Positions 5,605 through 46,100 of a DNA stretch of 49,884 bases are shown piece by piece. The stretch's first letter is position 1, and the number at the start of each line of letters is the position of its first letter. Source of the DNA: Chloroflexota bacterium (GTDB lineage: Bacteria > Chloroflexota > Anaerolineae > Anaerolineales > Villigracilaceae); contig SXKT01000074.1 in NCBI GenBank assembly GCA_005778035.1, positions 1 through 49,884 on the forward strand, read 5' to 3'. Position numbers and translations under genes: made by a program. Under the pieces are notes generated by a model that saw nothing but the letters and a program-made list of their open reading frames with translations, ran no database searches and was not told the origin of the DNA.

Positions 5605-6378
5605 ATGTACGCGATTGTTACCGCAGGCGGCATTCCAAAGCCGGATGAACCTCTGTTTGAATATTCTCAAGGCCGCTCCAAATCCCTGATCGATATCGCT
5701 GGCAAACCGATGATCCAATGGGTTTTAGACGCACTTGGTGGATCAAAAAAAGTGGACCAGGTTGTGATCATTGGCTTGGACCAAACCGCCAATGTTACCT
5801 GTGGTAAGCCAGTCCATTATTTGCCAAACCAAGGATCAATGCTGGCCAACATGGTAGCGGGTTTTGGCAAAGTTTTAGAGATTGACCCAACCGCCAAATA
5901 TGTCCTGATCGCCTCATCTGACATACCAGATTTAAAAAGTAACATGGTCGATTGGCTTGTTTCAGAAGTTGAAAAAGAAGCCGCCGACCTGTATTACGGA
6001 GTTGTTCGAAAAGAAATTATGGATCAAACCTATCCTGGATCCCGCAGGACATGGACACGGCTGAAGGACATGGAAGTGTGTGGCGCGGATATTAACGTTG
6101 CTCATGTAAGCATGGCCACAGAACATTTGCCCACGTGGGAAACCTTGATCGGCCGGCGCAAATCCCCGTTAAAACAGGCTGCTGCCATAGGTTTGTGGAC
6201 TCTGATCCTGATGCTTACTCGCCAAGCCACTCTACAGGAGTTGGTTGGCCGTGTATCCCGATCGATCGGAATCAAGGGCAAGGCGATCTTATGGCCTTGG
6301 GCCGAAGCCGGCATGGATGTGGATAAACCGCACCAACTGGCGATGATGCGTACAAGCTTGCAAAAACAAAAATCCTGA
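5605..6378 (+). CDS. MobA-like NTP transferase domain protein
   Basis: A 257-residue nucleotidyltransferase-fold protein. The N-terminal AIVTAGGIPKPDE is the loop that binds the NTP. It is followed by the Lys-containing SLIDIAGKPMIQWVLDAL and by an acidic metal site in VLIASSDIPDL. Relatives include molybdenum-cofactor guanylyltransferase and sugar- or alcohol-phosphate nucleotidyltransferases. There is no companion cofactor gene here, so the acceptor is unknown. A segment with hydrophobic stretches (about residues 190-205) precedes a C-terminal tail. An AGGAGA precedes the ATG, and the PAP2 gene begins six bases after the stop, so co-translation is likely. Confidence 0.82.
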   Translation: MYAIVTAGGIPKPDEPLFEYSQGRSKSLIDIAGKPMIQWVLDALGGSKKVDQVVIIGLDQTANVTCGKPVHYLPNQGSMLANMVAGFGKVLEIDPTAKYVLIASSDIPDLKSNMVDWLVSEVEKEAADLYYGVVRKEIMDQTYPGSRRTWTRLKDMEVCGADINVAHVSMATEHLPTWETLIGRRKSPLKQAAAIGLWTLILMLTRQATLQELVGRVSRSIGIKGKAILWPWAEAGMDVDKPHQLAMMRTSLQKQKS

Positions 6379-6384
6379 CGAGGA

Positions 6385-6948
6385 ATGGCATTGAAGGAAT
6401 TGATCACCGAAATGATCCGATGGGATGAAGCATATTCCCATAAATTGCGCATCGCCGAAAAACCAGGAGTTGGCAGGCGAGCGGCCATGTTTTTTGCCCA
6501 CTCGGGAGATAGTTGGTTTTGGGGTGCCGGTCTTTTGGCAATCTGGTATTTTGGAACCACGGATTGGAAGCGCTGGGCCTTCTACGAACTGCTTTTCATC
6601 AGTTTGTTGGTCATTGTTATTATGTCTCTCAAGTTCACCATTCGGCGCAAACGGCCCGCTGGCGAGTGGGGGGCGATCTACCGAAATACCGACCCGCACT
6701 CATTCCCATCAGGCCATGCCGCCAGGGCTTTCATGATCGCCTTCCTGTGCCTGATCCTCGGACCGGCTTGGCTGGCTGCGATCTTGCTATTATGGGCGCC
6801 ATTGGTCACTCTCAGCAGAGTGTTGATGGGCGTCCATTACATATCAGATGTTATTGTGGGCGCCCTGATCGGTATCGCCTTCGCTTATATCGGCTGGGGG
6901 TTTGCTCCCTTATTCCCCTTGCCAGATATGATCTTAAAAGGTTTTTAA
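6385..6948 (+). CDS. PAP2-family membrane phosphatase
   Basis: A 187-residue integral membrane phosphatase. All three PAP2 signature motifs are intact: Lys83 to Arg90-Pro91 (KFTIRRKRP), P108-S-G-H111, and S144-R145 through H151 and D155 (SRVLMGVHYISD). The protein has about five membrane helices. Family members dephosphorylate phosphatidate, phosphatidylglycerophosphate or undecaprenyl diphosphate at the membrane surface. The ATG at 6385 touches its GAGGA. The in-frame TTG at 6391 is better spaced and could be the real start. The gene lies between the nucleotidyltransferase and esterase genes with gaps of 6 and 3 bases. Confidence 0.88.
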   Translation: MALKELITEMIRWDEAYSHKLRIAEKPGVGRRAAMFFAHSGDSWFWGAGLLAIWYFGTTDWKRWAFYELLFISLLVIVIMSLKFTIRRKRPAGEWGAIYRNTDPHSFPSGHAARAFMIAFLCLILGPAWLAAILLLWAPLVTLSRVLMGVHYISDVIVGALIGIAFAYIGWGFAPLFPLPDMILKGF

Positions 6949-6951
6949 ACC

Positions 6952-7737
6952 TTGTTTCTCAACCACATCCATTTTCGTTCACACGTGCTTGGGTACCAAC
7001 AAAAGCTACTGATTATGCTGCCACAAGGCCAGGATGGCCTGATCTTGCCTGGAAAACTTAAGTGCCTTACCTTGTTGCACGGTCTATCAGATGATGAAAC
7101 TGCCTGGATGAGATGGTCTAACATCGAGAAATACGCCGAAAAATATGGCATCGCCGTAGTTATGCCAGCAGTTGAAAAAAGTTTTTATTCCAATATGGTG
7201 TATGGTGACCGGTTTGCAGATTATATTAGCGAGGAAGTACCGGCGTTTTTACGCGGATTCCTCCCCCTTTCCGGCCAGCGAGAAGACAACTACATTGCCG
7301 GCATTTCCATGGGCGGGTACGGGGCATTAAAGATCGCCCTTTCCAATCCAACATCCTACTGTGCAACGGCCTCACTTTCTGGTGTTGTCGATATTGCAGA
7401 TTTCCTTTCGCAACCTGAGATCACTGAAAACAAAGAATTTTTCCACGATATTAGCTTGGTTTTTGGTGATATCACCAAATTGAAGGATACGAAAAATGAT
7501 TTGTTGCGGCTGATTGTGGATGGGATGGTGAAGGATAATCTTCCGCGTATATACCAGTGTTGTGGAACAGAGGATTTTCTATACCAAAACAACCTGATCT
7601 TTCGAGACAAGGTCTCGGAATTGGACATTGATCATTATTACGAAGACGGACCGGGCGATCACCTTTGGTCCTATTGGGATACGATGATCCAAAAGGTATT
7701 TCCCTGGTTTGGATTAAAAGAGCTGGAACCCATTTAA
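6952..7737 (+). CDS. Alpha/beta-hydrolase esterase (tributyrin/acetyl esterase type)
   Basis: A 261-residue alpha/beta hydrolase of the esterase-D/EstA type. The nucleophile elbow GISMGG places the catalytic Ser at 119, followed by an Asp in CCGTEDFLY and the His in GPGDHLW. HGLSDDETAW supplies the oxyanion-hole region. No signal peptide is visible. The start is a TTG at 6952, which gives the family's usual opening (a short strand followed by a Leu-Gly turn). AAAAGG lies ten bases upstream and overlaps the end of the PAP2 gene. It is the last gene of the operon and is followed by a terminator. The substrate is not evident. Confidence 0.83.
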   Translation: MFLNHIHFRSHVLGYQQKLLIMLPQGQDGLILPGKLKCLTLLHGLSDDETAWMRWSNIEKYAEKYGIAVVMPAVEKSFYSNMVYGDRFADYISEEVPAFLRGFLPLSGQREDNYIAGISMGGYGALKIALSNPTSYCATASLSGVVDIADFLSQPEITENKEFFHDISLVFGDITKLKDTKNDLLRLIVDGMVKDNLPRIYQCCGTEDFLYQNNLIFRDKVSELDIDHYYEDGPGDHLWSYWDTMIQKVFPWFGLKELEPI

Positions 7738-7790: not shown

Positions 7791-9002
7791 CTATAACCCA
7801 GCCGCGGCTTTTAGGCTGGCAACCTTCTCGGTGTTTTCCCAAGGCAGTTGCACATCATCACGCCCAAAATGGCCGTAAGCGGCAGTTTGGCGGTAGATCG
7901 GCTGGCGCAGATTGAGGTCGCGAATGATTGCGCCCGGCCGAAGGTCGAAGGTGGTCGAGACGATCTCGGCGATCTTCTCATCGGCGATCTTCCCAGTTCC
8001 AAAGGTTTCTACATTGATCGAAAGTGGGTGGGCAACACCGATCGCGTACGCCACCTGGATCTCACAACGATCAGCCAGGCCAGCAGCAACGATATTCTTG
8101 GCAACCCAGCGTGCCGCGTACGCAGCGGAGCGATCTACCTTTGTGGGGTCTTTGCCAGAGAAAGCGCCACCACCGTGCCGGCCCATGCCACCGTAGGTAT
8201 CTACGATGATCTTGCGGCCAGTCAGTCCGGCATCGCCCATCGGGCCGCCAATGACAAACCTTCCAGTGGGGTTTACATAGATGTTGATATCTCGATCAAC
8301 CATATCGGCGGGCAAAACAGCCAAAATGACATGCTTGATGATATCCGCCCGGATCTGTTCTTGGGAGATCTCGGGGGCATGTTGGGTTGAGATCAACACG
8401 GTATCGATCCGCTTTGGTTTGCCATAAGCGTACTCTACCGTAACCTGGCTTTTGCCATCAGGGCGCAACCAAGGCAGTGTGCCGTTTTTGCGAACTTCCG
8501 CGAGTCTTCGGGCCAATTTGTGTGCCAAGTAGATCGGCATCGGCATCAGGGTGGCTGTCTCGTTGCAGGCAAATCCAAACATCATGCCTTGGTCACCAGC
8601 GCCAACACCATCCACTTCGTCGTGCTCCTTGTGGCTCACTTTTTCTTCAAGCGAGTGGTCTACACCCATGGCGATATCGGCACTTTGGCTGGCCACCGCA
8701 GAAAGGACTGCGCAAGTGTTGCCATCGAAACCCTTGTCGCTATGGTCGTAACCGATCTCTCGTACAACCTTGCGAACCAGTTCATCGAAGTTGACGAAAG
8801 CGTTGGTGGTGATCTCACCGAGTACGGCGATCAGGCCGGTTTTGGCGGCTGTTTCGCAAGCCACGCGTGATTGCGGATCTTGCGCCAAACAAGCATCCAA
8901 CACAGCGTCGGAAATTTGGTCGCAGATCTTGTCAGGATGCCCTTCCGTCACAGATTCGGACGTAAAAAGCAATTTTGGTGAAGTCATAAAAGTGCTGCTC
9001 AT
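7791..9002 (-). CDS. metK: S-adenosylmethionine synthase
   Basis: A 403-residue methionine adenosyltransferase that makes SAM from methionine and ATP. The signatures are complete: [18 protein letters not shown] near the N-terminus, the ATP motif [12 protein letters not shown], and the glycine-rich [19 protein letters not shown]. Its length matches the family. The ATG at 9002 follows AAGGAG by seven bases. A longer in-frame reading upstream would translate the riboswitch and is rejected. The gene is controlled by the SAM-I riboswitch directly upstream. Confidence 0.97.
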
Positions 9003-9010
9003 GATTTTCT

Positions 9011-9060
9011 CCTTAGGATTAAAAGAAATCGCCCTTTCAGGAACAGACGTGAAAGGGCGA
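9011..9060 (-). terminator. Expression platform of the metK riboswitch (terminator and Shine-Dalgarno)
   Basis: On the minus strand an 11-bp stem (9060-9050 with 9039-9029, core TCGCCCTTTCA) with a 10-base loop is followed by TTTCTTTT. This is a standard intrinsic terminator. Just past it lies CCTAAGGAG (from 9017), the metK Shine-Dalgarno. A CTTAGG at 9074-9069 is complementary to CCTAAG at 9017-9012, so the ribosome-binding site may also be masked. Confidence 0.9.
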
Positions 9061-9082
9061 AAAAAGAACCTAAGTCCTTGCC

Positions 9083-9203
9083 CTCTCATCTCCCAGATAA
9101 TGCTCTGTCGGATTTGGCACCGCGCAGCGTTAGGGATATGAACCACATGCTGTCGGTTGTCGAGGCTTCACAGGGCCGTTCCCTCCGCCTCTCTGGATAA
9201 GAG
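9083..9203 (-). promoter_or_regulatory. SAM-I (S-box) riboswitch aptamer
   Basis: The minus-strand RNA has the full S-box layout. P1 is CTCTTATC (9203-9196) pairing with GATGAGAG (9090-9083). The conserved core includes AGAGAGGCGGAGGGAACGG, TGAAGCC, CGACAACC and GGTGCCAAATCC. P3 is formed by ACCG/CAGC with GCTG/CGGT, and P4 by CAGA/TCTG. The 3' strand of P1 continues into GAGAGGGC (9087-9080), which can pair with GCCCTTTC (9058-9051) in the terminator. SAM binding therefore favours termination, and absence of SAM favours metK expression. Confidence 0.96.
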
Positions 9204-10093: not shown

Positions 10094-11983
10094 ATGGATA
10101 CCAAACTGATCGATCCCCAATCTACCCCGTCCGATTCCCCTTCCCCTAACAAACATGTTCCAGGATCAACGATCGCTAACCGATACCTGCTTTTGGACGT
10201 GATCGGTGTAGGTGGCATGGGGTCTGTCTACCGCGCCAAAGACCTGCACTTTGCCCGGGTAGACAGGTTGGTTGCCATCAAAGAATTGGTCATACAAACC
10301 AAGGACCCAGAGATTCGCAAGACCATTGCCCAAAATTTTGAGCGAGAAGCCAATATCCTGGCCATGCTGGAACATCCCGCCATTCCAAAAATTTTCGACG
10401 CCTTCTCGGAAGAAGATCGCTCTTTTTTGGTAATGGAACTGGTGGATGGAAAAGACCTTGAGGAAATGATCAATAATAATCCTGGGTACTTCCCAGAGGA
10501 ACGCGCTCTTGATTGGGCGATCCAACTTTGTGATGTGCTCTCCTACTTACACCAACACCAACCAACCCCGATCATTTTTCGCGATATGAAACCTTCGAAT
10601 GTGATGGTAAACCAACGGGGAAAAGTAGTATTGATCGATTTTGGTATCGCCAAACCGTTCCAGATCGGCCAAAAAGGAACCATGATCGGCACTGAAGGGT
10701 ATTCATCTCCAGAGCAATATCGGGGAGACGCGACGGTTCGTACCGATATTTACTCACTCGGTGCTACATTGCATCATTTGCTTACCAAAAAAGACCCACG
10801 CAACGAGCCTCCATTTTCGTACAACGACCGTCCGGTCAGAAAATTCAACCCGGCGATATCTGCTGACCTTGAAAAAGTTGTGCAGACCGCGGTTCAGTAC
10901 GAAACTGAAAACCGATATGCCAACATAGAGGAATTGCGCTCTGCCTTGGTGGCCGCCGGAAAAAAAACCGGCCTCCTGAACCGGGCACATTCCGGACCCC
11001 GGACCGCCGATCTCGGAGCCCACAACGCTGTCACCCCACTGTGGTCCTTCAAGTGTGAGGATGAGATCAGGGGCTCTGGTGTTTATGCAGACGGTAGCCT
11101 TTATTTCGGAAGTTATGACCACAATGTATACGCGCTGGATGCCGCCACTGGAGACTTTAAATGGAAGTATGCTACCCATGCCGGCATCGTTAGCAAGCCA
11201 ACTGTGCTCGGAGACCAAATCATGTTTGGTTCGGAAGACAATAATGTATATTCCGTGCATGCAGAAACTGGCAGCATGGTATGGAGTTATCCAACCGGCA
11301 GCCCGATCCGATCATCTGGACGGGTAGCAGACGATCACTTGTTCATAGGTTCTGATGACGGATTTTTACATGTGATTCAAATTGGGTCTGGAACGCCCGC
11401 ATGGACCTATGACGCAGGCGGACAGGTTCGATCAAGCCCCTATTTACTGTCAGACAAGGTGATTTTCGGTACCGAAGCCGGTGAATTGATCGCTCTGAAT
11501 TTTCGTGGCCAAACTTCCTGGAAATTCAGGGCAAAAAGGGCAATCACGTCCTCGCCGGTAGCCAACGAGAACCTAACCTTTGTCTCTTCATTGGATTCTT
11601 ACCTATATGCGATAGACACCAATTCCGGATGGATGATTTGGCGATACAGGTTGGAGAAAGCCTCCATTTCTTCCCCTCTGTTGGTTGGCAACCAGATCAT
11701 TCTCGGATCAACTTCTGGCTTTGTAATTGCCATCGATTCAAAAAGCGGACGGGAAATGTGGCGATTTAAAACCGATGGACAGGTGAATGGTTCACCCTCC
11801 TATTACAAAGATAACCTGTATATTGGCAGCATAGACAAACACCTTTACTGCCTCGAAATTGCCACCGGCAGGTTGGTTTGGAAATACCAAACCAAGGGGC
11901 CTATCACTGCCACCCCCGCAGTATTTGACGGAATGGTATACATCGGCTCCACGGATCATACTTTTTACGCATTTGGTGTATAG
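10094..11983 (+). CDS. Ser/Thr protein kinase with C-terminal PQQ-type beta-propeller
   Basis: A 629-residue cytosolic kinase. The Hanks-type catalytic domain (about 30-290) has the Gly loop GVGGMG (38-43), the ATP Lys63 in VAIKE, the catalytic loop FRDMKPSNV with Asp164 (Phe replaces the usual His of HRD), DFG at 182-184 and the activation segment ending GTEGYSSPEQY. Residues 315-629 are about seven or eight PQQ/WD-like blades with repeated forms such as GSLYFGSYDHNVYALDAATG. No membrane helix or signal peptide is seen, so the propeller should be cytosolic and may sense a ligand or bind a partner. It is the first gene of a cassette with its cognate-looking phosphatase 13 bases downstream. 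Confidence 0.92.
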   Translation: MDTKLIDPQSTPSDSPSPNKHVPGSTIANRYLLLDVIGVGGMGSVYRAKDLHFARVDRLVAIKELVIQTKDPEIRKTIAQNFEREANILAMLEHPAIPKIFDAFSEEDRSFLVMELVDGKDLEEMINNNPGYFPEERALDWAIQLCDVLSYLHQHQPTPIIFRDMKPSNVMVNQRGKVVLIDFGIAKPFQIGQKGTMIGTEGYSSPEQYRGDATVRTDIYSLGATLHHLLTKKDPRNEPPFSYNDRPVRKFNPAISADLEKVVQTAVQYETENRYANIEELRSALVAAGKKTGLLNRAHSGPRTADLGAHNAVTPLWSFKCEDEIRGSGVYADGSLYFGSYDHNVYALDAATGDFKWKYATHAGIVSKPTVLGDQIMFGSEDNNVYSVHAETGSMVWSYPTGSPIRSSGRVADDHLFIGSDDGFLHVIQIGSGTPAWTYDAGGQVRSSPYLLSDKVIFGTEAGELIALNFRGQTSWKFRAKRAITSSPVANENLTFVSSLDSYLYAIDTNSGWMIWRYRLEKASISSPLLVGNQIILGSTSGFVIAIDSKSGREMWRFKTDGQVNGSPSYYKDNLYIGSIDKHLYCLEIATGRLVWKYQTKGPITATPAVFDGMVYIGSTDHTFYAFGV

Positions 11984-11996
11984 GCTGCATTCAGTG

Positions 11997-12890
11997 ATGT
12001 TAAATAAACTTATCGAAAAATTAAAATCGCTTTTTGGAAACAAAACACCAGCCATGCTGGATTCAAGCACGCCGCACGTTCAAAACCGCGCGGCTGAAAT
12101 GTCTCGCCAAAACACAGTCTCAGAATTGCGTTATGCGGCCGGCCAATCCATCGGAAGGGTCCGAAAACAAAACGAAGACAGCCTGTTCGCAAATTCGATC
12201 GTCATAGCCGGAAACAACAAACAAACCCGGGTAGGCATTTTTATCATTGCAGATGGAATGGGTGGTCATCACCATGGTGAAGTTGCCAGTGGTTTGGCGA
12301 TCAACACCATCATTTCAGAACTCCAAGATTCCATTTTGCTTCCCCTGTATAACCAAAAAGAGAAGTTATTTGAAAATAACTCCCTCCACGAGATCTTGCA
12401 ACATGCGGTTTCCTCTGCCCAAAACGCCGTTGTTAATGCTGTGCCCGGCGCTGGCACTACCGTCACCATGGTTGTAGTGGTCAATTCGCAAGCCAGTATC
12501 GTAAATATTGGTGATAGCAGGTGTTACTTGTTGCCTGATGATGGATCGATTCAAAGCCTTACCATCGACCATTCCCTGGTGAACAGGTTAGTAGAACTGG
12601 GTCAAATTACGGCCGAAGAAGCTGTTCAACATCCCCAGAAAAATATCCTCTACAAAGCGATTGGCCAAAAAGGCGAGATCGATGCCGACATTGAAACACA
12701 CTCTTTGCACTCCGGCGACAGGTTACTGTTATGCAGTGATGGTCTTTGGGGCCAAATTTCCGATGATCTTCTTCAAAATGCCATTACTTCAGCTGCCAGC
12801 CTTGACCAGGCTGTAGAGGATCTGATCTCGTTAGCCAACGGCAGTGGTGGCCCCGATAATATCAGCGCAATCCTCATTCAGGTACCATGA
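11997..12890 (+). CDS. PP2C-family protein phosphatase
   Basis: A 297-residue PPM-type Ser/Thr phosphatase. The metal-binding motifs are present: QNEDS (Asp61), ADGMGGH (Asp86), GDSRCYLL, CSDGLWGQI and the C-terminal GGPDNISAIL. An N-terminal segment of about 40 residues precedes the catalytic domain and has no clear fold. The ATG at 11997 is 13 bases after the kinase stop. Its ribosome-binding site is weak, which points to coupled translation. It most likely reverses phosphorylation by the adjacent kinase. The last codons overlap the J/vWA gene by ATGA. Confidence 0.93.
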   Translation: MLNKLIEKLKSLFGNKTPAMLDSSTPHVQNRAAEMSRQNTVSELRYAAGQSIGRVRKQNEDSLFANSIVIAGNNKQTRVGIFIIADGMGGHHHGEVASGLAINTIISELQDSILLPLYNQKEKLFENNSLHEILQHAVSSAQNAVVNAVPGAGTTVTMVVVVNSQASIVNIGDSRCYLLPDDGSIQSLTIDHSLVNRLVELGQITAEEAVQHPQKNILYKAIGQKGEIDADIETHSLHSGDRLLLCSDGLWGQISDDLLQNAITSAASLDQAVEDLISLANGSGGPDNISAILIQVP

Positions 12891-14344
12891 CCGATCCATC
12901 CCGGAAGGATCTTTACTCCATTTTGGGTATCAGCCCAACCGCCAGCCTGCAAGAGATCAAATCAGCATTTCGCAAGGCATTAAAAGAAAATCACCCCGAC
13001 GTAGCCAATGGCAGCACCACCCGATTCTTCGACATTCGCGACGCCTATGTGACACTTTCAAAGGAAAAAACCCGCGAGGAGTACGATCGGTCAATCCATG
13101 GCCAAAATGACCTTGGTCTGATTCAGATATTGCCTACCATATACCCTGAGGAAATTCCCTTCGGAATTGACCGCGCGCGCATATCCCTTCACTTAAAATT
13201 TACGGGGGCTACTGAAAAATCTACAAGCTCTGGGCAAGGAATAGAATTGGTGATTCTGATCGATACCTCCACTTCTATGGCCGGCACCAAGCTCGACGCT
13301 GTGAAATCAGCCTGTCAGGCGCTTCGAGGTGGCCTTCACCCTGCCGACAAACTCACCATCATCGGGTTCAATGATTTCCCCAATATTTTATTTGAAAACC
13401 AAGACCCAACCCTTCCCGGCCTTGGAAACAAGATCCAAACAGTTCAAGCCAAAGGCGGTACAGAATTATCCAAGGCATTGGATATGGCTGGCCAGCGGCT
13501 TGCTGCCCATCACAGAAAAGACAGGCCACAGTACATCTTTTTATTCACAGACGGAAAAACCTATGGCGACGAGAATGCATGCTTGCAATTTGCCGCCCAG
13601 GCAGCGGAGAATATAGTGGCGGTACACTGTTTTGGCATTGGCCCTGAATGGAACGAAACACTACTTGAAGAGATATCTGGCAGGACAGGCGGGTCAACCA
13701 ATTTTTTATCGCAAAAACAACTCACAGCAAAAGAGATATTGCGTTACTTGCATTCCGCGATAACACGCAAGGTTCCAGACCTCTACCTCAGCCTTACACC
13801 TTCTCCCGAATCCCAAATTCTGAGCATCTATCGGCTCAACCCTTCTCCCCAGCAAATACCCTATTACCCCAAAATGGTCATTGGTAGGTTTTCCGGTGAG
13901 CGCCAAGCAAGTATTTTGGTTGAATTGGAACTAAACCTGCAAGGCAACTTTACATCCAAATCGTTACTTACCGTTTCCTCCTGGATATCTGGTATGCCTT
14001 CTGCTCATACTATTGACATTCCCGTTCCAGCATCCAGTTCCAACTCAGAGGAAAAGATCCCCGATGAAACGATCCGTGACGTAACCCAAAAGGTCGTTCT
14101 CATTCGTATGCAACAAAAAGCCCGAAAGCTGATCAACAAGGGAAGCTTGGTTGAAGGCAAAAAATTGCTCAACAGAGTGGCAGAATTATCTCGCCAGTAT
14201 GGTCATGTGTCCTTGGCACAAACCATCGTTCTTGAACTGAATGAACTTGACGCGTCTAAACATTTTTCGGATGAGGGTGAAAAAAAGATTCATTTCGGCA
14301 CCAGGGCTTTGTTGCTCCCGGATGAAAAGGAGCAAAAATCATGA
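12887..14344 (+). CDS. J-domain/von Willebrand factor A fusion protein
   Basis: A 485-residue protein with an unusual architecture. Residues 7-68 are a J domain with an intact HPD (36-38), which in co-chaperones stimulates DnaK ATPase. Residues 118-300 are a vWA domain with a complete MIDAS: D126, S128 and S130 (DTSTS), T192 (KGGTEL) and D222 (FTDG). It therefore should bind a divalent metal and a protein partner. A beta-rich region and a C-terminal helical region follow; the latter (about 400-465) resembles the tail found after vWA domains in other proteins. It overlaps the phosphatase gene and the FHA gene by ATGA at both ends. Function is inferred from domains only. Confidence 0.85.
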   Translation: MTDPSRKDLYSILGISPTASLQEIKSAFRKALKENHPDVANGSTTRFFDIRDAYVTLSKEKTREEYDRSIHGQNDLGLIQILPTIYPEEIPFGIDRARISLHLKFTGATEKSTSSGQGIELVILIDTSTSMAGTKLDAVKSACQALRGGLHPADKLTIIGFNDFPNILFENQDPTLPGLGNKIQTVQAKGGTELSKALDMAGQRLAAHHRKDRPQYIFLFTDGKTYGDENACLQFAAQAAENIVAVHCFGIGPEWNETLLEEISGRTGGSTNFLSQKQLTAKEILRYLHSAITRKVPDLYLSLTPSPESQILSIYRLNPSPQQIPYYPKMVIGRFSGERQASILVELELNLQGNFTSKSLLTVSSWISGMPSAHTIDIPVPASSSNSEEKIPDETIRDVTQKVVLIRMQQKARKLINKGSLVEGKKLLNRVAELSRQYGHVSLAQTIVLELNELDASKHFSDEGEKKIHFGTRALLLPDEKEQKS

Positions 14345-14754
14345 AAGTTTGCCCATACTGCGCCACCGAGGCATTGTTTGGCAGCATTTATTGCGAGCAG
14401 TGTGGAGAGGCGCTATTTCAATCCTCGCCTCCCGAAATATTTTTGGTGATTGGAAGCCAAACCATAACACCAAATCCTTCTTTAAGCATCCTGCTGGGCA
14501 GGGATCCAACCCCGGTATCCGGTTCACAGGTGATCTCGCTGGAAAACTACTCACAGGAAGAAATGGGTGTTTCCCGCAATCATGCGATCATTTTCCTGTC
14601 TGATTCTAAATTTTTTATTAAAGACACAAGTTCCACCAATGGAACTTGGCTAAATATGAATAAAATTAAGCCACAAGAAGCAGTGGAGATACATGACAAT
14701 GACCGAATTAGGTTGGCCAATTTTGAGATTCTCGTAAATATTCGAAAGCGATAA
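14341..14754 (+). CDS. Zinc-ribbon FHA-domain protein
   Basis: A 137-residue protein. The N-terminus is a zinc ribbon with C4, C7, C18 and C21 (CPYC and CEQC). Residues 33-135 are a forkhead-associated domain with GRD (53-55), SRNH (78-81) and SSTNGT (97-102), the residues that contact phosphothreonine. It would read the phosphorylation state produced by the kinase at 10094 and carry it to a partner bound through the ribbon. It overlaps the J/vWA gene by ATGA and ends two bases before the next ATG. Confidence 0.9.
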   Translation: MKVCPYCATEALFGSIYCEQCGEALFQSSPPEIFLVIGSQTITPNPSLSILLGRDPTPVSGSQVISLENYSQEEMGVSRNHAIIFLSDSKFFIKDTSSTNGTWLNMNKIKPQEAVEIHDNDRIRLANFEILVNIRKR

Positions 14755-14756
14755 AA

Positions 14757-14996
14757 ATGAATACTGTTTTGATCCATGTGCTCAACGATGATCCGATCCT
14801 GGGTGAGTTGGACGATTTACCCGCACCAACTGACCAGTTGATTAAAATTTCCCATCCCAGAAAAAAAGATGGGAAAGATTTGCCGTACTTGGCCCAAAAC
14901 GTTACGGAGATTTTTTGGCCGTTAAGCCGCATCACCTTTATTGAAGTGATGCCAAGCGAGGACGATGACGAAATATTTGGTTTCGTGAGGGAGTAG
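14757..14996 (+). CDS. Small protein of unknown function in the kinase cassette
   Basis: A 79-residue cytosolic protein that I do not recognise. It has a hydrophobic start (VLIHVL), a Pro/Asp-rich segment, a basic RKKDGK patch and an acidic C-terminus (PSEDDDEIFGF). It lacks Cys, membrane helices or a signal. Tight spacing supports it as a real gene: two bases after the FHA stop and three bases before the response regulator ATG. It may be an adaptor of the cassette, but nothing in the sequence says so directly. Confidence 0.7.
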   Translation: MNTVLIHVLNDDPILGELDDLPAPTDQLIKISHPRKKDGKDLPYLAQNVTEIFWPLSRITFIEVMPSEDDDEIFGFVRE

Positions 14997-14999
14997 ACA

Positions 15000-15710
15000 A
15001 TGACCGAAGAATTGGAAAGACGCCGAATTTTGGTTGTCGACGACGAAGAACGAATGGTTCGTTTTATTCGATTAAACCTGGAGCATGATGGCTACATGGT
15101 CAGTGAGGCCTTCAATGGCAAGCAAGCCATGCAAAAACTGCGCGAAGCCCTGCCAGATCTGATCCTGCTGGATGTTATGATGCCTGATTTGGATGGCTTC
15201 GAAGTTTTGGAGATGGTCCGAGAAATCAGCAACGTACCCATCATCATGCTAACCGCCAAAGGCGAAGAAGATGACCGTGTACGCGGGTTAGAAAAAGGCG
15301 CTGATGACTACGTCACCAAACCATTTAGCCCGCGCGAATTAGTGAGCCGTGTAAAAGCCGTATTGCGCCGCACCGAAGGCGCTTCCGGGTCCATGCACGG
15401 GTTGATTGAAGTGGATGAACGATTAAAAATCGACTTTGATAAACGGGAAGTTTGGTTGGAAGGCAAGATCGTAAAATTGCGGCCGACAGAATATAAGTTG
15501 CTTTTTCATTTGGTGCAAAACGCAGGCTGGGTGCTCTCTCACGACCAATTGCTTACCAATGTTTGGGGGTACGAGTACCGCGACGAACCACATTATGTGC
15601 GCCTATACATAAATTACCTGCGCCAAAAATTGGAAAAGGATGCCTCGAACCCAAAGTACATCCTGACTGAACGTGGGGTTGGCTACCGTTTCGTCGACTT
15701 CCGCCGGTAA
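15000..15710 (+). CDS. OmpR/PhoB-family response regulator
   Basis: A 236-residue two-domain regulator. The receiver domain has the acidic pair DD (14-15), the phosphoacceptor D58 (LLDVMMPD), a Thr in MLTAKG and the Lys in YVTKPFS. The C-terminal winged helix has the [16 protein letters not shown] and [14 protein letters not shown] segments, ending in RGVGYRF. It binds DNA when phosphorylated. No histidine kinase gene is adjacent. It follows the small cassette protein by three bases, so it is probably part of the same transcript as the Ser/Thr kinase, and crosstalk is possible. Confidence 0.95.
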
Positions 15711-15793: not shown

Positions 15794-16456
15794 ATGACAA
15801 ACAAACAACGTATTCTGCTGGTAGATGACCATGAAGTGGTACGGTTGGGACTTCGCTCTTTATTGGAGCGGCACCCAAATTTTGAAGTGATCGCTGAAGC
15901 AGGTTCAGCGCGTGAAGCTTTGGAGCAAGTAGCCCACATGAGCCCCGATGTGGTCGTGATGGATATCCGCTTGCCAGGAACCTCTGGCATTGAGGCTTGT
16001 GAAGAGATCGTGAGGTTATACCCCGCCACCAAAGTGATCATGTTAACCTCCTATGCTGAAGATGAGATGTTATTCTCGGCGATCCGCGCCGGGGCTTCCG
16101 GTTACATTCTTAAGCAGATCGGCGGTGCGGACTTGATCCATGCCCTTGAGGCTGTTGGCCGCGGAGAAGCATTGCTTGATCCGGCAGTCACCCAACGAGT
16201 TTTTCAGGAAGTCCGAAAAGCTGTCAAAGAAGAGGAAGCATCCGCCTTTGCACACCTTAGCCAGCAGGAAAAACATGTACTTTTGCTGGTCTCTGAAGGA
16301 AAAACAAACCGCGAGATTGCCCGGTCACTGTATTTGGGCGAGGGAACCGTACGCAATTATGTCAGCAGTATCCTCTCCAAACTTGGGGTCAATAACCGTG
16401 CAGAAGCTGCCGCCTACGCAGTAGAGCATAACCTAAAAGAATATATCCATAACTGA
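15794..16456 (+). CDS. NarL/LuxR-family response regulator
   Basis: A 220-residue regulator. The receiver domain has DD at 11-12, the phosphoacceptor D57 (VVMDIRLPG), Thr in MLTSYA and Lys in YILKQI. The C-terminal LuxR-type helix-turn-helix includes [18 protein letters not shown] and [17 protein letters not shown], and it resembles DevR/DosR and LiaR. It has its own promoter and a following intrinsic terminator, so it is a monocistronic unit. No sensor kinase is adjacent. A GGAG precedes the ATG. Confidence 0.95.
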
Positions 16457-25170: not shown

Positions 25171-26496
25171 TTATCGCCTTCTGAATACATCAGCAACAGA
25201 AGCACCAAATATCTCTGGGGGCAATTTGAACCCGGCTGCATCTAACCGGGGGGTGAATAATGGCCTGATACCAGTAGGTTTGAGCGAACCAACGATCTTT
25301 CCGTCTTCCGATACGCCGGTCTGCTCAAATTTAAAGATATCTGTAAGCACAATAGTATCGCCTTCCATCCCAGCAACCTCGGTTATCGCGGTTACCTTGC
25401 GGCTGCCATCCTTTAAGCGTGTTTGTTGAACGATCAAGTCTATGGCGGCTGAAATTTGTTGTCGTACCACCTTGATCGGAAGATCCATCCCAGCCATTAA
25501 CACCATCGTCTCTGTGCGAGAGAGAGCGTCCCTGGGTGTGTTGGCATGCAATGTGGTCAGGCTGCCATCATGGCCAGTATTCATGGCCTGCAACATGTCC
25601 AAGGTTTCTCCGCCACGGCACTCACCAACGATAATTCGGTCTGGCCGCATGCGCAGGGAATTGCGAACCAGGTCACGAATGGTCACCTGGCCTCTGCCAT
25701 CGATATTTGGAGCCTTGGTCTCCAAACGAACCACATGTTCTTGCTGCAATTGCAATTCCGCAGCGTCCTCAATGGTAACGATACGTTCATCTACAGGAAT
25801 GAAACCGGAGAGTACATTTAGCAATGTGGTTTTTCCCGATCCCGTTCCTCCCGAGACCACTACATTCAGCCGGCTGACAACGCATGCCCGCAAAAATTCG
25901 GCCATCGAATCTGTTAGCGAGCCAAATTTGACAAGCTGCTCGATCTTCAATTTGTCTTTTTTAAATTTTCGGATCGTGATCGATGCGCCATCGATCGCAA
26001 CCGGTGGTATTACCGCGTTCACGCGAGATCCATCTGGCAGGCGGGCGTCTACAGTAGGCGAATCAAAATCAACCCGGCGCCCCAATGGCAGGATGATTCG
26101 GTCAATCACTCGTAATACTTCCGAATTATCTTCAAATTCCACATCTGAACGGATGAGCCGACCCTTTTTCTCAATATATACATTTTTGGGGCCGTTCACC
26201 ATTACTTCACTCACATCCTCGTCGTCCAACAGTACTTGGATCGGCCCAAAACCAAGCAATTCATTCCTGACCTCGACCCTGATGCGCGTCCTCACATCAT
26301 CACTAACCGACGCTTGAGCAGAATCCTGAAGCTTGGCAAGCAGGTCTTCGATCTTTTTTTCGACGATGGTTTGTCGGTCTGCCAGTGACGGTCGTTCTGC
26401 CTCCAGATCTCTTTGGATGCTTTGAATAATGAATTGGCGGATTTTACGTATATCCGCTTCGGAAATTGCTGACTGATTGCTATTTGGATTGTCCAT
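25171..26496 (-). CDS. CpaF/TadA-type secretion ATPase
   Basis: A 441-residue ATPase of the type II/IV secretion family, TadA/CpaF branch. The N-terminal domain (about 15-180) precedes the RecA core. The core has Walker A GGTGSGKTT (216-224), the acidic IVTIEDAAELQL, the His-box segment MNTGHDGSLTTLHAN and the arginine-rich SLRMRPDRIIVGE. In complete systems it powers Flp/Tad pilus assembly. No tadB, tadC, prepilin or secretin gene is visible in this window, so it is an orphan here or works with distant genes. It follows the small DUF6812-like gene by seven bases. Confidence 0.93.
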   Translation of the reverse strand: MDNPNSNQSAISEADIRKIRQFIIQSIQRDLEAERPSLADRQTIVEKKIEDLLAKLQDSAQASVSDDVRTRIRVEVRNELLGFGPIQVLLDDEDVSEVMVNGPKNVYIEKKGRLIRSDVEFEDNSEVLRVIDRIILPLGRRVDFDSPTVDARLPDGSRVNAVIPPVAIDGASITIRKFKKDKLKIEQLVKFGSLTDSMAEFLRACVVSRLNVVVSGGTGSGKTTLLNVLSGFIPVDERIVTIEDAAELQLQQEHVVRLETKAPNIDGRGQVTIRDLVRNSLRMRPDRIIVGECRGGETLDMLQAMNTGHDGSLTTLHANTPRDALSRTETMVLMAGMDLPIKVVRQQISAAIDLIVQQTRLKDGSRKVTAITEVAGMEGDTIVLTDIFKFEQTGVSEDGKIVGSLKPTGIRPLFTPRLDAAGFKLPPEIFGASVADVFRRR

Positions 26497-40326: not shown

Positions 40327-42732
40327 CTATTGTGAATATTGGTAGATCGTAACACTTCCAGTTTGGTATGCAACCGCCAAATTTTCTGCAAACTTTTGTT
40401 CAAAAACCTTATATGTAACCCGTTCCAAATTGCCGATCACAACGTAATCGACGTTGTAACCTTCCAACAATTCTTTCGTCGCTTGCCAATCCGGGGTCAC
40501 ATAAATCGCCTCTACATCCTGCTGACGAGATCCGACCTCATCATAACCACCCCTCCATTGGCTTTCGTGTCCAGGCCACCCTAATAGGGTAGGCTGCCCC
40601 GAGAAAGTGGACATGCGGGCATACTCAGAATAGGAGCCACCGATCGCCTCAACTATCACCCTTTGGGGTTGATGCCGCAACCACAATATCGCCGCATATT
40701 CATCAGGGTTATTGGCAGCCAATTGGGAGGCTCCATCCAATGTAATGGCGGGTTTGGATTGAAAATTTAATAATCCTGTCTTCTCGGGCAGGGATGTGAT
40801 TGGATACACCAGCCCTATTGCGCAGGTCAAAACAAACACCAACCCAGGAATCCACTTGAGGTAGCCGCGGGATTTTTCGATTGATTTGATCATCCCATAC
40901 CCTGCGGCAATCGACCAAAGGATCCATGCCTGGTAATAGAACTTGAAGACCGTATTCATGCGGTTGCCAAATTGGTCTCGCAGATACACAAATTCAGGTA
41001 CCAAAACCAACACCGCGCCAACAACCACCAGCATAAAAACAAACAGGGTTTTCCGGTCTATGCGAACCCGGGCAAATTGGCTGACGACAGCCAGCCCAAC
41101 CGATAATACCCCCCCAACGGTTACAAGGCCGCCAAGGTAAGCCAAGCGCCTTCCCAAAGCGGCTTCCAATATCTGCGAAAAAGTTGCGTAACCTTGCGAA
41201 TTGATCAGCGCCGCACCTTCTGGCAAGCTGCTCGCTACCCAGCCCAACAAGGTGGAGAGTATCGCCAACGCTGTGATCAGAAACAGTGTCCCTAATACAC
41301 CTTCGATAACGGAGTTTTTCAACCTCCATATCTTTATACCCCCAAACCAAAAGATCGGAACAAGCAACGGCAAGAACATGACCCAGATGTAGGCACCCCG
41401 GGTCGGGAAAATTATGTTGGGCAACAGACCGCCCGCCTGCGAGGAAAACCCCAGATAAAACGGGAGATACAACAATATTGATAGCGTTCCCGCCAGTAGA
41501 GACCACAACGCAAGCTCCCAAAACAGAGCTTTGCTCCAGCCTCCATATTTTGCGGAATGAAAGAGCCGCGCCAAAATGACCAACCCAAAATAGATCGGAA
41601 AATCCCACGTGTTAAGAAAGGCAAGCCCGCCCAATACAACAGCTGACCCCCATAGAAGTGGGTCGGCAAGAGGGGTTGGCGTACCGTTTTCGCGCCAAAG
41701 CAATGCCAGAGCCACCGCAATGGACAACAGCACAAAAGGGATGGCCAATACATGGGGATGCAAGTCACCTAACAAGAAGGAAAAAAAGGGGAACTCGTCG
41801 ATGACCTCGTGGAAGTTTCCCAACAGGTCGTAATCTTGTAATACCCGCGAGGCCCGCCACCAAAACCAGTACCGTGGTGGCCACACATTGATCATATCTG
41901 GCGGAACATTGATATCCTTGATGTTCAACCAGGACCAAAACCATCCGCTACTCGCTCTCCAACCTACCCCATATGCCCGCAAAAGTTCCAAAAAACCTTC
42001 CGCGTTTCCCATAAAAGTGAGCAACATCGGTCCGATCACAGGAAGCGATAATGCAGCCATGCTTATCTTTTTGCCTGCTGTATGCTCGCCATTGCGCAGC
42101 AAGTTGAATACCAGCGAATATGAACCTGCAACCGCCATGGCTGTCACCATTGCCAACATCAGGTTAAACGCGACAGACCCTGGTGTTTTGGTGGCCAAGG
42201 CCAATATGCCAGCCATTACATAACCAAAATAGTAATAGGATATGGCATACCCGCTGAGCCATGGATCTGATGGCGGGAAAACAGCCGATTTGATGATCGA
42301 GTTGATGAAAGCCAACTCCATCGGTTTTTCTGTGCCTGAAACCTCCGGGTTTAGCGCACGCATAAATGCCCAAAAAGCAAAGGCGGCAAAGAAAAGCAAT
42401 TCGCTTGCACCAACAACCCGCTGGTTGGCTACAACAAACGTCCTTATTTTTACCCAGCTATTTTCCCAGGTATCACCTTTTGGCCACAGGTTGGTTATAA
42501 CAAAAACCACACCCGCAAAAAGAATCACAGATAAATAAACCCCGCCAAGCGTGTTGGTATAGGCACCCAAGGTTACCAAGATCCAATGGATGTAACTAAC
42601 CCCCAATAAACCGGCGATCTTGGAAAAGCCATACCCCCCATCCGCGAATTTCTCGAACATGCGATTCACCAACGGGAAGGCGATCAGCCCGATCAGGGTT
42701 ATTAATAAGTACCAGGCAAAAAATGAACCCAT
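40327..42732 (-). CDS. DUF2298 / YYY-domain membrane protein
   Basis: An 801-residue integral membrane protein with about 14 helices. It carries the YYY pattern (AISYYYFGYVMAG), the nearby FPPSDPWLSG, and the acidic FSFLLGDLHPHV. This domain is known as Chlor_Arch_YYY, found in Chloroflexota and methanogens. The C-terminal region (from DEYAAILWLRHQPQRVIVEA) is soluble. The function is not established; GT-C-like transfer is inferred. The ATG at 42732 is preferred (AAGG 11 bases upstream); an in-frame GTG at 42744 overlaps the DUF952 stop. Confidence 0.85.
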   Translation of the reverse strand: MGSFFAWYLLITLIGLIAFPLVNRMFEKFADGGYGFSKIAGLLGVSYIHWILVTLGAYTNTLGGVYLSVILFAGVVFVITNLWPKGDTWENSWVKIRTFVVANQRVVGASELLFFAAFAFWAFMRALNPEVSGTEKPMELAFINSIIKSAVFPPSDPWLSGYAISYYYFGYVMAGILALATKTPGSVAFNLMLAMVTAMAVAGSYSLVFNLLRNGEHTAGKKISMAALSLPVIGPMLLTFMGNAEGFLELLRAYGVGWRASSGWFWSWLNIKDINVPPDMINVWPPRYWFWWRASRVLQDYDLLGNFHEVIDEFPFFSFLLGDLHPHVLAIPFVLLSIAVALALLWRENGTPTPLADPLLWGSAVVLGGLAFLNTWDFPIYFGLVILARLFHSAKYGGWSKALFWELALWSLLAGTLSILLYLPFYLGFSSQAGGLLPNIIFPTRGAYIWVMFLPLLVPIFWFGGIKIWRLKNSVIEGVLGTLFLITALAILSTLLGWVASSLPEGAALINSQGYATFSQILEAALGRRLAYLGGLVTVGGVLSVGLAVVSQFARVRIDRKTLFVFMLVVVGAVLVLVPEFVYLRDQFGNRMNTVFKFYYQAWILWSIAAGYGMIKSIEKSRGYLKWIPGLVFVLTCAIGLVYPITSLPEKTGLLNFQSKPAITLDGASQLAANNPDEYAAILWLRHQPQRVIVEAIGGSYSEYARMSTFSGQPTLLGWPGHESQWRGGYDEVGSRQQDVEAIYVTPDWQATKELLEGYNVDYVVIGNLERVTYKVFEQKFAENLAVAYQTGSVTIYQYSQ

Positions 42733-42736
42733 CGCT

Positions 42737-43108
42737 TCATTCACCTTTCAGCGCGACAAATTTCCCCTGATCGTCCGCTTCCAAATCTGCGACTCCGATG
42801 ATCGCATCCATATTCAAAGGGCCGTACAAATGCGGAAACTGCTCGTTGAGGGGGATCTCAGCATGGGCATTTCCATCCGGATGGGCAGCGGATTCAAATT
42901 TGAGGGGCGCCCTCAATTTATCCGTGTCGATCATCAAACAAACCAGATCTGCCGCGTTTCGATAAAACAGGTTCGCGACCACCAAGACCTGATGTCGCTG
43001 TGATAAGTGGACAAAGCCCTCAGCCGTGAGCGAAGGTGGGTGATATTCTCCGGTTTGTTTCGCCTCGGAAAGTTGTTGGCCAGTGGTGATATGGTATAGC
43101 GTGCTCAA
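42737..43108 (-). CDS. DUF952 family protein
   Basis: A 123-residue cytosolic protein. The DUF952 pattern is clear: LYHITTGQQLSEAKQTGEY, SLTAEGFVHLSQ, VVANLFYRNAADLVCLMIDT and EQFPHLYGPLNMDAI. Structures of the family resemble ADP-ribosyltransferase folds, but activity is unproven. The TTG at 43108 overlaps the stop of the upstream gene (TTGA), seven bases after GAGG. Its stop lies next to the start of the downstream YYY gene. It is thus squeezed between two giant membrane genes. Confidence 0.85.
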   Translation of the reverse strand: MSTLYHITTGQQLSEAKQTGEYHPPSLTAEGFVHLSQRHQVLVVANLFYRNAADLVCLMIDTDKLRAPLKFESAAHPDGNAHAEIPLNEQFPHLYGPLNMDAIIGVADLEADDQGKFVALKGE

Positions 43109-46100
43109 TTTGCCACCTCGTAGATCGTCACGCCATCCTTTTGGTAAACGCTGCGCCAAAAAATGCCGTCGAATTGTTCGAACTTCGCGATTCCCTCTGG
43201 AGCGTATTGGATCTGCTCCAATTCACCCACAACGATATAGCGAACACTGTATTTGCGCAGGAAATTAACTGTGCTTTCGATCCGGTCCCCATTATAAAAA
43301 TTGTGAACATCCTCTACCCGGCTTGTCACCCATTCGCCCGGCAACAAAGCCCTTTGTTGGCGCTGATGCCAGTTCCAGCCAACCACACCCGGCAAACCAG
43401 TATAGATGGTGAACCGGTTTCCCCAGCGATACTCAACCGAGTTCGCCTCAACGATCACTGGCGATCCGGTAATGTTTTCCTGCATCCATTTGATCGCATG
43501 GTAATCTTTGGACAAGGCCATCTCTTGCTGATCCCAAAACGTGGCGTATGCCATATATTGCATCGAATCAAATGTAAAAGGTATACCTTGCGCCATTCTG
43601 TCACGCACTTTGTCGAACGATGCCGTGATGGTATACAATAACGCGCCAGCCAGTAATGCCATGCCAACCATCTCAAACACCATTGTGCGAAGGCGGCCCC
43701 AATCTTCCCGGTATTTGATCATTTGCGCAAGCGCGTATGCGGCGGTTATGGCAAACAGGGTCCAAACTTGTAAATAGAACTTGAAAACGGTATTCATGCG
43801 GCCGATATCGCCGGATAAAACAATGACCTCAACCATCGATGTGAGAACCAAACCTGTACCAAACATAAACAGCACAATCCTGTTTTCATCCGTCTGGCCA
43901 GGCTGAAGGATCAGTAACAACGCCCACAATGCCAGCGGGAACACAAACCATGCAATGGGTACATTCAACCCAAACTGAATGCCAGCGATCATCACAACCA
44001 CAGTGATCACTCCCCAGATGATCAATGTTTTGTATGGCCTCAAATATGCCAATGCCGAAACTGGAGTTCGCGCCATCCATTGGCGGGTTTCCCAGGACAT
44101 CCACATAAGGATGGTGAAAAGGAACAGACCCCAATGGGTCAAATAAGACCAGATCGGAGTTTTTTCATTCTGCCACATTTCCACTTTGCCATAGGCCATG
44201 CCATACCAATAACTAAAGGGCTGAAAGAATACCTGCGAAGCGGCAAGCAACACAACCAGGCTAACAACCCAATTGATCGCCGGCCGAAGCCTTGCCGGCA
44301 CCAAACCGTGCCGAATGATCTGCAGCGATGTGTTGGAAAGGCTAACGAACGAAACCACGATCGCCGCGAGCAATAAATAGGTCGGATGATCCCACGTATT
44401 GGTCGGGCGCAAGGATCCGATGACCAAGCCACCGAACAACAATGAAACAAGCCATCTTGTGGTAGAACCCTCATCCTTCATTCGCAACATGGAGATGACC
44501 CACACGATCACCAACAAGGTGATCGGCAGGGCGATCATATGGGCGTGCAGGTCACTATATAAAAATGTGAACAATGGGAATTCCGTGATCGCAAGGTCCC
44601 CTTGTGGCATTACCCGGCTGGGAGCCCACATGTAATCTCCCCAGCTAATGGGTAATTGTTCACCGCCCAACAATTTGCCAAACCCCTGCAACGCCCAAGA
44701 CCAGCGTTGAAGTACGGGGGTGGCAATAGAATCGACCAACTCGTTTGAAACCATCATTTTTTGCAGCGAGCGGTAGATCAGCTGAACTGTCCCCAGGTTG
44801 CCCAACAAAACCAAGCCCCCGGCCCCGGCAATTGCGCCAATCACTTGCCGATAATCCCATCCAGAATCTTCGTTTTTAGTCAGGTTCCACACCGCCGAAA
44901 AACCACCCATGCCAAGCATCGCGAACAAACTCGGCAGAACGTAATTGTAGGCAACAGAAGGAGTGATACCCAGCAATTTGATTGGAGTGCCTACCAGTAC
45001 AAACCCCCAATAGTAATAATTAATGTAACCGCCTGCATACCAAGGATCGTAGGGAGGGAAGGTTGTGCTTTTAAGTACCGCGTTGAGGTATGAAAAATCC
45101 ATTGGCCGCTCGCCACCCCTTGCCGGATGCCACAGATCTGGGTTGCCCAGGCGAATCAGCAGGTCGAACAGGAACAGGACAAAAAACACCAATTCTGTCA
45201 GGCCAATTTTTTTCAGGTTGCGTTTTACAAAATCAACCATTGCCTCTCTCTGAGCCCAAAAGGCAATGCCGCCTGCCGTTATGAACAAAGCCAACCAAAC
45301 CGCCAATACCGGCCTGGTATAAGGGATCGGAGTAACAGAACTGGCCAACCATGCGCCATATGCAAATAACAACATACCCGCCAAACGGGCAACCGGGTAA
45401 GCCTTATCGGACAGGCTGCGGAAGATATAAAACAGGAATGGGAACGCCGACAAACCAAGCAAAAAGATGAAGCCATACCAAACCGCCAAACCCAGCCACG
45501 GATTTGCATTCAAAGGTGAACTTGGTGGATATAACTCGGCCCAGGTTCCTCCATCAATATTTGCATTGGCCTTTTCCGGGGTTTGCAACAGGTCCAAAGT
45601 AATACGTGGAGCGTTTCTTGGCGTTACGTGAATGACCTTGCTTAGGTCTACACTGCCGAGAATATCAGCCACCTTCTGTGAGTCATAATTGGCGCTTTTT
45701 TTAAAGATCAACACCTTGGTGGCATCGTATACGGTAAAAGATTCATCGGCAAATTGGGTGTTAAACTCGTGGCCAAAAATCCGCGGGTAAGCGGTGAACG
45801 TCGCCACCAACTCATAACCCAGATTGCCTGTAAACATATTCGGTGTCGCCACGTTATAACACCACAGCACTTCTTTTTCCGGGGGGCAGCCGATCAATTG
45901 CTGGTAATACGTTGTTGTCAGCGGGTACCGCTCTGGTACCCGTGTTGTAGTCGCCCATTGACGGTTCGAGGAGATCACCAGAAAATCTCCCGCATCCAGG
46001 TTGGATTGGAATCGGGTGAGTTTGTCGGTATTGTCGTCCCAATACATTTCAAAGTTCAAGTCTGGCAGGTATAGCCCGCCAAATGGGTCATAGCCATCCA

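Follow-up and report, generated by a model that had tools for sequence, protein, structure and literature searches.

In the archaellum regulatory network of Sulfolobus, the ArnA-ArnB pair is acted on by the kinases ArnC and ArnD and the phosphatase PP2A. Kinase, PP2C and vWA classes also meet in one cluster in the TerY-P triad, and TerY-P-like modules act as stand-alone defence (PMC11090510). In the type VI secretion system (T6SS), a kinase, a phosphatase and an FHA reader occur together as PpkA-PppA-Fha (PMC12607579), PpkA being a kinase and a vWA domain in one chain according to a bacterial kinase survey, which places PQQ-repeat kinases in Deinococcus and Streptomyces (PMC1262709). Among the neighbours of actinobacterial GAP1-N2 GTPase systems, a kinase gene adjoins a PP2C gene and a separate vWA gene, an arrangement given in that account as actinobacteria-restricted and GTPase-tied, with a zinc-ribbon or membrane kinase (PMC7159879). 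Here we describe six tightly packed plus-strand genes at 10094-15710 in a 49,884-nucleotide stretch (the window) of contig SXKT01000074.1 from a Chloroflexota bacterium of the class Anaerolineae. They encode a propeller kinase, a PP2C phosphatase, a vWA protein with a J domain, an FHA protein, a small protein of 79 residues (U79) and an OmpR-type response regulator. The closest likeness of this cassette is to the archaeal ArnA-ArnB pair, which was missed by the original prediction.

The cassette shares with the archaeal system a zinc-finger or zinc-ribbon FHA protein, a protein that combines vWA, beta-sandwich and C-terminal helix bundle, and a Hanks-type kinase with a Ser/Thr phosphatase, which in the cassette too would act on the pair. 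It differs in being bacterial, with one gene string for both kinase and phosphatase, in having PP2C instead of PP2A, and in its propeller kinase, whereas ArnC has an oligonucleotide/oligosaccharide-binding (OB) domain and repeats; it also shows no ArnB_C sequence match and adds U79 and, by lineage, the J domain and the regulator. We consider it somewhat probable that the locus is a cytosolic Ser/Thr phospho-switch working like ArnA-ArnB and held in one operon in Chloroflexota. The computed features behind this reading are gene order, co-inheritance and intact catalytic and binding residues, together with a predicted-fold match to ArnB, a profile match to ArnA and a predicted Sm-like fold of U79; the phosphorylation sites, the docking, the direction of the effect and every output step are what we infer. 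In such a switch, the zinc-ribbon FHA protein would probably be pre-docked via its ribbon on the beta-sandwich of the vWA protein. The FHA domain would then clamp a phospho-Thr, changing the shape and the partners of the FHA-vWA pair, and PP2C would reset the switch. Output would pass through U79, predicted to be a small Sm-fold protein; in Anaerolineae the OmpR-type regulator encoded alongside would be a second output. The cassette would thereby be a bacterial single-operon counterpart of the archaeal switch. Named strains carry it (Chloroflexus islandicus, Herpetosiphon aurantiacus and Thermanaerothrix daxensis), and kinase, phosphatase, substrate and reader are thus testable as a set in their genera.

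All six open reading frames (ORFs) are real and lie where they had been placed, and Pfam recovered each domain that had been named (Pkinase and PQQ-type propeller, PP2C, DnaJ and VWA, FHA, Response_reg and Trans_reg_C). The spacing in order is 13, -4, -4, 2 and 3 nt, in agreement with the description of the genes as overlapping or at most 13 bases apart. Gene calls at the related loci are ORF picks with profile labels, so an absent gene may be a missed call, and identical proteins were counted once. A long J-vWA match was found in 17 of 20 relatives, the others being G007 (62% complete), G014 and G019. U79 is present in 16 of the 17 relative loci; in the remaining one (L031) the contig breaks off shortly behind the vWA gene. 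If the window is counted in, all six genes occur in 15 of the 17 loci with U79, L028 and L032 being cut by contig ends, and the kinase-PP2C-vWA-FHA-U79-OmpR order holds in the relatives wherever the contig is long enough. One of these 15 loci (L029, genome G017) has an extra kinase gene inserted at 6225-7448 between the FHA gene and U79.

Beyond these relatives, a U79 profile gave matches in 85 of 199 genomes at class level and in 78 of 251 at phylum level, with a single copy in every positive genome (85/85 and 78/78). All five core genes are present in 26 of 40 loci picked from such matches, mostly one or two per family. A genome scan of 84,980 species gave 183 relatives, and among the best 80 of the 183 the five core genes stand together in 60 loci; by our reading of the listing 13 further loci are cut by a contig end, and seven have other arrangements (L132, L159, L162, L164, L170, L185 and L188). 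Chloroflexota-type names, some of them placed without a look-up, account for 79 of the best 80, so that relatives outside the phylum may exist among the rest of the 183. The genera named in the best 80 include Chloroflexus, Roseiflexus, Oscillochloris, Chloroploca, Herpetosiphon, Thermanaerothrix and Anaerolinea. A metagenome-assembled genome named 'Candidatus Gracilibacteria' (L131) holds a Chloroflexales-like cassette whose U79 shares 85% identity with the Chloroflexus-type query; mis-binning is the probable reason. The same order returning in relatives argues that the cassette is more than chance; it is not a one-genome oddity, and the idea that the genes form one unit holds for a five-gene core that keeps its arrangement across Anaerolineae, Chloroflexus, Roseiflexus and Herpetosiphon. 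Searches in an open-access paper library did not turn up this Chloroflexota cluster; what came nearest were the actinobacterial kinase-PP2C-vWA neighbours and the kinase survey cited above.

Co-occurrence points the same way. A cassette-type vWA protein (at least 430 bits, a cut chosen where the list drops from 431.9 to 374.1) was found in 49 of the 251 genomes, and each of the 49 also has U79, the match in G028 being partial. In 48 of them U79 lies 0.4-1.2 kb downstream of the vWA gene on the same strand, and in G435 the two are on different contigs. Neither a cassette-type vWA protein nor U79 was found in G366, G374 and G396 of the same order. Pairwise distances of the six families, taken from sequences above 60% of the median length, correlate with Spearman coefficients of 0.51-0.79, all above 100 label shuffles, as expected for genes inherited together. 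Directly behind U79, an OmpR gene stands in all 17 order-level loci (17 of 17), but in the wider sets the count is 11 of 40 and 34 of 80, with some contigs ending there; none follows it in the Chloroflexus, Roseiflexus, Oscillochloris and Herpetosiphon loci where the contig runs on. As neither the HPD motif of the J domain nor the OmpR gene is general, the core is kinase, PP2C, vWA, FHA and U79, and the J domain and OmpR regulator are lineage additions. The suggested contact between Ser/Thr and two-component signalling would therefore be a lineage feature only.

The vWA protein consists of a J domain (~8-72), a split beta-sandwich, a vWA domain (120-291) and a four-helix bundle (394-484), and its predicted structure matches ArnB in the vWA domain, split beta-sandwich and C-terminal helix bundle. 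The residues of its metal-ion-dependent adhesion site (D126, S128, S130, T192 and D222) are intact and conserved in the family alignment, and this motif is the one basis on which metal binding by the adaptor is suggested. The HPD motif occurs in 56 of 112 vWA proteins; forms that lack it include those of Chloroflexus, Roseiflexus and Herpetosiphon, and the 56 proteins without HPD include contig-cut or split fragments (L028, L149, L168, L174 and L180) and two with a J-like start (L086 and L183). DnaK recruitment through the J domain, as had been proposed, thus cannot be the general mechanism. In the FHA protein, the cysteines C4, C7, C18 and C21 form a predicted zinc ribbon whose four-cysteine pattern returns in 110 of 120 FHA proteins, and G53, R54, S78, R79, H81 and N100 are conserved in the family alignment. 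Its best profile match among solved structures is ArnA, covering the FHA part only.

In the kinase, the glycine loop, K63, the catalytic loop (Phe-Arg-Asp, with D164) and the DFG motif (182-184) are all intact, and K63, D164 and D182 are conserved across the family, as are the Asp residues of PP2C. The earlier description of the genes as a complete write-erase-read set holds. No convincing membrane helix was found by hydropathy in the window proteins, and 2 of 107 family kinases exceed the hydropathy mark for one; the kinase therefore probably senses in the cytosol instead of acting as a receptor. The best NCBIfam match of the kinase is AfsK-type, and PP2C scores 223 bits against an Stp1/IreP-type NCBIfam model with a cut-off of 230.

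A candidate phosphorylation site lies near the end of the vWA protein, within its last helix, where Thr472 and Leu475 are each invariant in the 111 aligned sequences with a letter at that position. FHA domains often bind phospho-Thr with Ile, Leu or Asp at +3, which makes T472-x-x-L475 the leading candidate site for the FHA protein. The range superposed on ArnB ends at model residue 477 and chain residue 381; judged from these range ends only, T472 would correspond to about ArnB residue 376, close to the reported T371-T375.

Several observations weigh against an ArnA-ArnB-like switch. Nothing in the own genome matches the ArnB_C family (PF18677), the Sulfolobus acidocaldarius control being positive, and a Pfam scan of the window proteins at E 0.1 gave no PF18677 row. 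When solved-structure sequences were searched with a profile built from the C-terminal region of the vWA protein, neither ArnB nor a 4fx5 chain came up, and the likeness of the helix bundle to ArnB is one of predicted structure only. According to PMC12852372, proteins built like ArnB are widespread, and most of them have no tie to multi-site phosphorylation. Furthermore, a helix predicted with confidence at 462-476 includes T472, whose conservation may therefore be structural. Among paralogs, whose Thr472 equivalents were scored by eye, the Thr is kept in 10 of 10 vWA proteins adjoining an FHA gene and in 8 of 12 others (p 0.096); pooling paralogs with cassette proteins gives p 4e-5, these sequences being related and not independent. 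Other Chloroflexota have related clusters of four genes in which no U79 was seen, and the core switch may thus work without it. The cassette is most likely best described as working like ArnA-ArnB, and we do not class it with the Arn systems, since ArnB_C gave no match and phosphorylation, binding and target are putative.

The related clusters consist of kinase, PP2C, no-J vWA and FHA genes (L222, L224, L225, L230, L235 and L236; no kinase is labelled in L224), and L228 is a further PP2C, no-J vWA and FHA cluster without U79 seen. Their PP2C proteins mostly have ~550-660 residues. Such sets occur in G335 (Chloroflexus-like, with a U79 identical to that of the named Chloroflexus loci L116-L118), in G364 (with a Roseiflexus-like U79) and in genomes of family f75. 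The four-gene kit without U79 is thus wider than the U79 cassette. Neighbouring vWA genes were noted in L221 and L232. The no-J paralog vWA protein of L222 matches 76 plasmid records, and the window vWA protein has no plasmid match. Four of these plasmid loci were examined: a MerR-type gene stands directly before the vWA gene on two Deinococcus plasmids and one Picosynechococcus plasmid (L239, L240 and L242), where kinase, PP2C and FHA genes are not listed in gene tables that are incomplete, and the unannotated plasmid L241 has the vWA protein alone by profiles. The MerR-vWA pairing is a different, recurrent arrangement.

U79, listed before as an unknown protein, is the most telling part of the cassette, a point that had been missed. 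It has no Pfam, NCBIfam or PADLOC match, and its comparison with solved-structure sequences gave only weak MCM4 rows. The predicted fold is a five-stranded Sm/LSm-like barrel of ~65 residues, with likenesses to 3by7, LSm2, EDC3 and SmF, and the acidic tail ends F-x-R-E. Its resemblance to Sm/LSm/Hfq proteins would lie in the predicted barrel and the short turn before strand 5; it differs in a model without N-terminal helix, the lack of a sequence-family match, its acidity and its tie to a kinase cassette. There is close to an even chance that U79 has no role in RNA and is a beta-barrel adaptor that tethers kinase and FHA protein to each other, which is compatible with the ArnA-ArnB-like switch and concerns the output arm only. 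U79 is acidic (median isoelectric point 4.83 over 123 sequences), adjoins the kinase or FHA gene in most loci and, with 41 members searched at E 1, gave no LSM or Hfq match, all of which suit an adaptor; the predicted Sm-like fold, a conserved basic stretch, a conserved P-x-x-R turn and a family of U79 proteins outside the cassette do not.

In five loci (L089, L107, L110, L188 and L215), U79 stands directly after the kinase gene with PP2C, vWA and FHA not between, and these loss patterns point to U79 as the closest and most persistent partner of the kinase. The FHA-U79 pair follows recN-like genes in L111, L112, L209 and L214. A long-tailed U79 stands directly before a topA-like gene in seven loci (L115, L199, L201-L204 and L206), three of them with a dprA-like gene upstream; no cassette gene was seen there, and the tail ends in a conserved (D/N)-E-(D/E)-(F/L)-L-R-R-(V/I)-R. 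The recN-, topA-, dprA- and NAD-kinase-like names were assigned by reading the sequences, without a family search. Besides this topA-linked family, no cassette was seen with the U79 of L091, L114, L115, L132 and L185, the last with U79-OmpR only.

Hfq is almost absent from Chloroflexota (0 of 189 good genomes). That U79 is a kinase-controlled Sm-fold riboregulator or another RNA-linked output in this phylum seems unlikely, and its acidic isoelectric point weakens the RNA-binding reading. If true, an ArnA-ArnB-like Ser/Thr switch and a new Sm-like family would couple phosphorylation to post-transcriptional control, joining Ser/Thr signalling and RNA control in one operon. If U79 binds no RNA, it would be a new kinase adaptor. 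As a widely conserved family without a Pfam or NCBIfam entry, where canonical Hfq is almost absent, it would fill a gap in Chloroflexota regulation in either case.

Other Ser/Thr kinases phosphorylate partner response regulators, and the unit might instead regulate the OmpR-type regulator through phosphorylation by its kinase, which we regard as distinctly unlikely. Over 62 loci the median distance between U79 and the OmpR gene is 3 nt, within the order none of the other five proteins is as conserved as the regulator (71-95% identity to the window) and its receiver residues D58, T85 and K107 are conserved in the family alignment, as such a target would suggest. The regulator cannot be the core target, since it is missing after U79 in those Chloroflexus, Roseiflexus, Oscillochloris and Herpetosiphon loci where the contig continues.

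It is very unlikely that the cassette is a TerY-P-like or other defence or conflict module, in which kinase, PP2C and vWA protein would trigger an anti-phage or stress response. Its enzyme classes are those of TerY-P, TerY-P-like modules act in defence as noted above, and the PADLOC matches in the cassette are kinase-domain and PP2C models, the PD-T4-6 kinase models reaching E 4.9e-64 on the kinase domain, though this is expected of many Ser/Thr kinases. However, the vWA protein lacks TerY_C in the Pfam scan at E 0.1, and TerD (PF02342) is absent from all 21 genomes tested, with Bacillus subtilis and Deinobacterium chartae controls positive and the own genome 64% complete. TerY_C (PF15616) was found in 1 of the 21, on another contig, and in 0 of 14 control genomes, so that this control is uninformative. 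The kinase carries a propeller and not a zinc ribbon or OB fold, the string has no obvious effector gene, and an FHA protein and U79 are added. The single U79 copy per positive genome and co-inheritance across families likewise speak against defence; the window U79 has no match in 72,556 plasmid records, and a viral-contig scan gave no confirmed relative.

The T6SS threonine-phosphorylation pathway, which has practically no chance and resembles the cassette in its kinase, phosphatase and FHA protein, is ruled out for the tested genomes, as the VipB sheath protein is absent from all 21 (E. coli control positive, own genome 64% complete), the FHA protein scores 39 bits against the TagH cut-off of 120.25 and is of a different FHA family, and vWA and kinase are separate chains. 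The resemblance to TerY-P and T6SS that had been pointed out does not amount to identity, and the accompanying statement that no ter or T6SS gene is nearby is borne out for the markers searched, TerD, TerY_C and VipB. For the GAP1-N2 neighbours, neither an FHA protein nor U79 is mentioned in the accessible part of PMC7159879. The AfsK-type kinases of Streptomyces also join a kinase to a PQQ-type propeller, but the cassette kinase reaches 231.7 bits, far below the equivalog cut-off of 1300.

Table 1. Positions of the cassette genes, the candidate site and the adjoining regulator in the window.
Feature	Position	Strand	Remarks
Ser/Thr kinase with PQQ-type propeller	10094..11983	+	629 aa; kinase domain ~24-290, propeller ~315-627
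PP2C-type Ser/Thr phosphatase	11997..12890	+	297 aa; 13-nt gap after kinase
J and ArnB-like vWA protein	12887..14344	+	485 aa; 4-nt overlap with PP2C
Thr472-Arg-Ala-Leu475 codons, last vWA-protein helix	14300..14311	+	counted from ORF start 12887
Zinc-ribbon and FHA protein, ArnA-like architecture	14341..14754	+	137 aa; 4-nt overlap with vWA gene
U79, predicted Sm/LSm-like barrel	14757..14996	+	79 residues; 2-nt gap after FHA
OmpR/PhoB-type response regulator	15000..15710	+	236 aa; 3-nt gap after U79; lineage addition
NarL-type response regulator	15794..16456	+	83-nt gap; outside core

The mechanical ORF listing starts PP2C at 11859, and the plausible ATG is that given in Table 1. The NarL-type regulator stands nearby downstream in 10 of 17 relative loci with 78-91% identity, and a promoter-like match, of a kind not above shuffled expectation, precedes it. 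Scans for an operon boundary were set aside, with 11 promoter-like sites against 9.2 (sd 3.6) in shuffles and 13 terminator-like sites against 7.6 (sd 3.3). A T2SSE-type secretion ATPase is encoded at 25171-26496 (-); its tested neighbours are unrelated and not pilus genes, and with T2SSE relatives in only 2 of 137 cassette loci a Tad or type IV pilus link was rejected. Two adjoining DUF2298 membrane proteins of 805 and 1634 aa lie at 40327-42744 and 43105-48009 (-), the domain of the longer one being in its C-terminal half. An S-adenosylmethionine (SAM) riboswitch at 9083-9203 (-) (Rfam RF00162, 75.5 bits, gathering 44.4) lies upstream of the ORF 7791-9146, which resembles S-adenosylmethionine synthetase; the two overlap because the GTG start listed for the ORF is probably too early.

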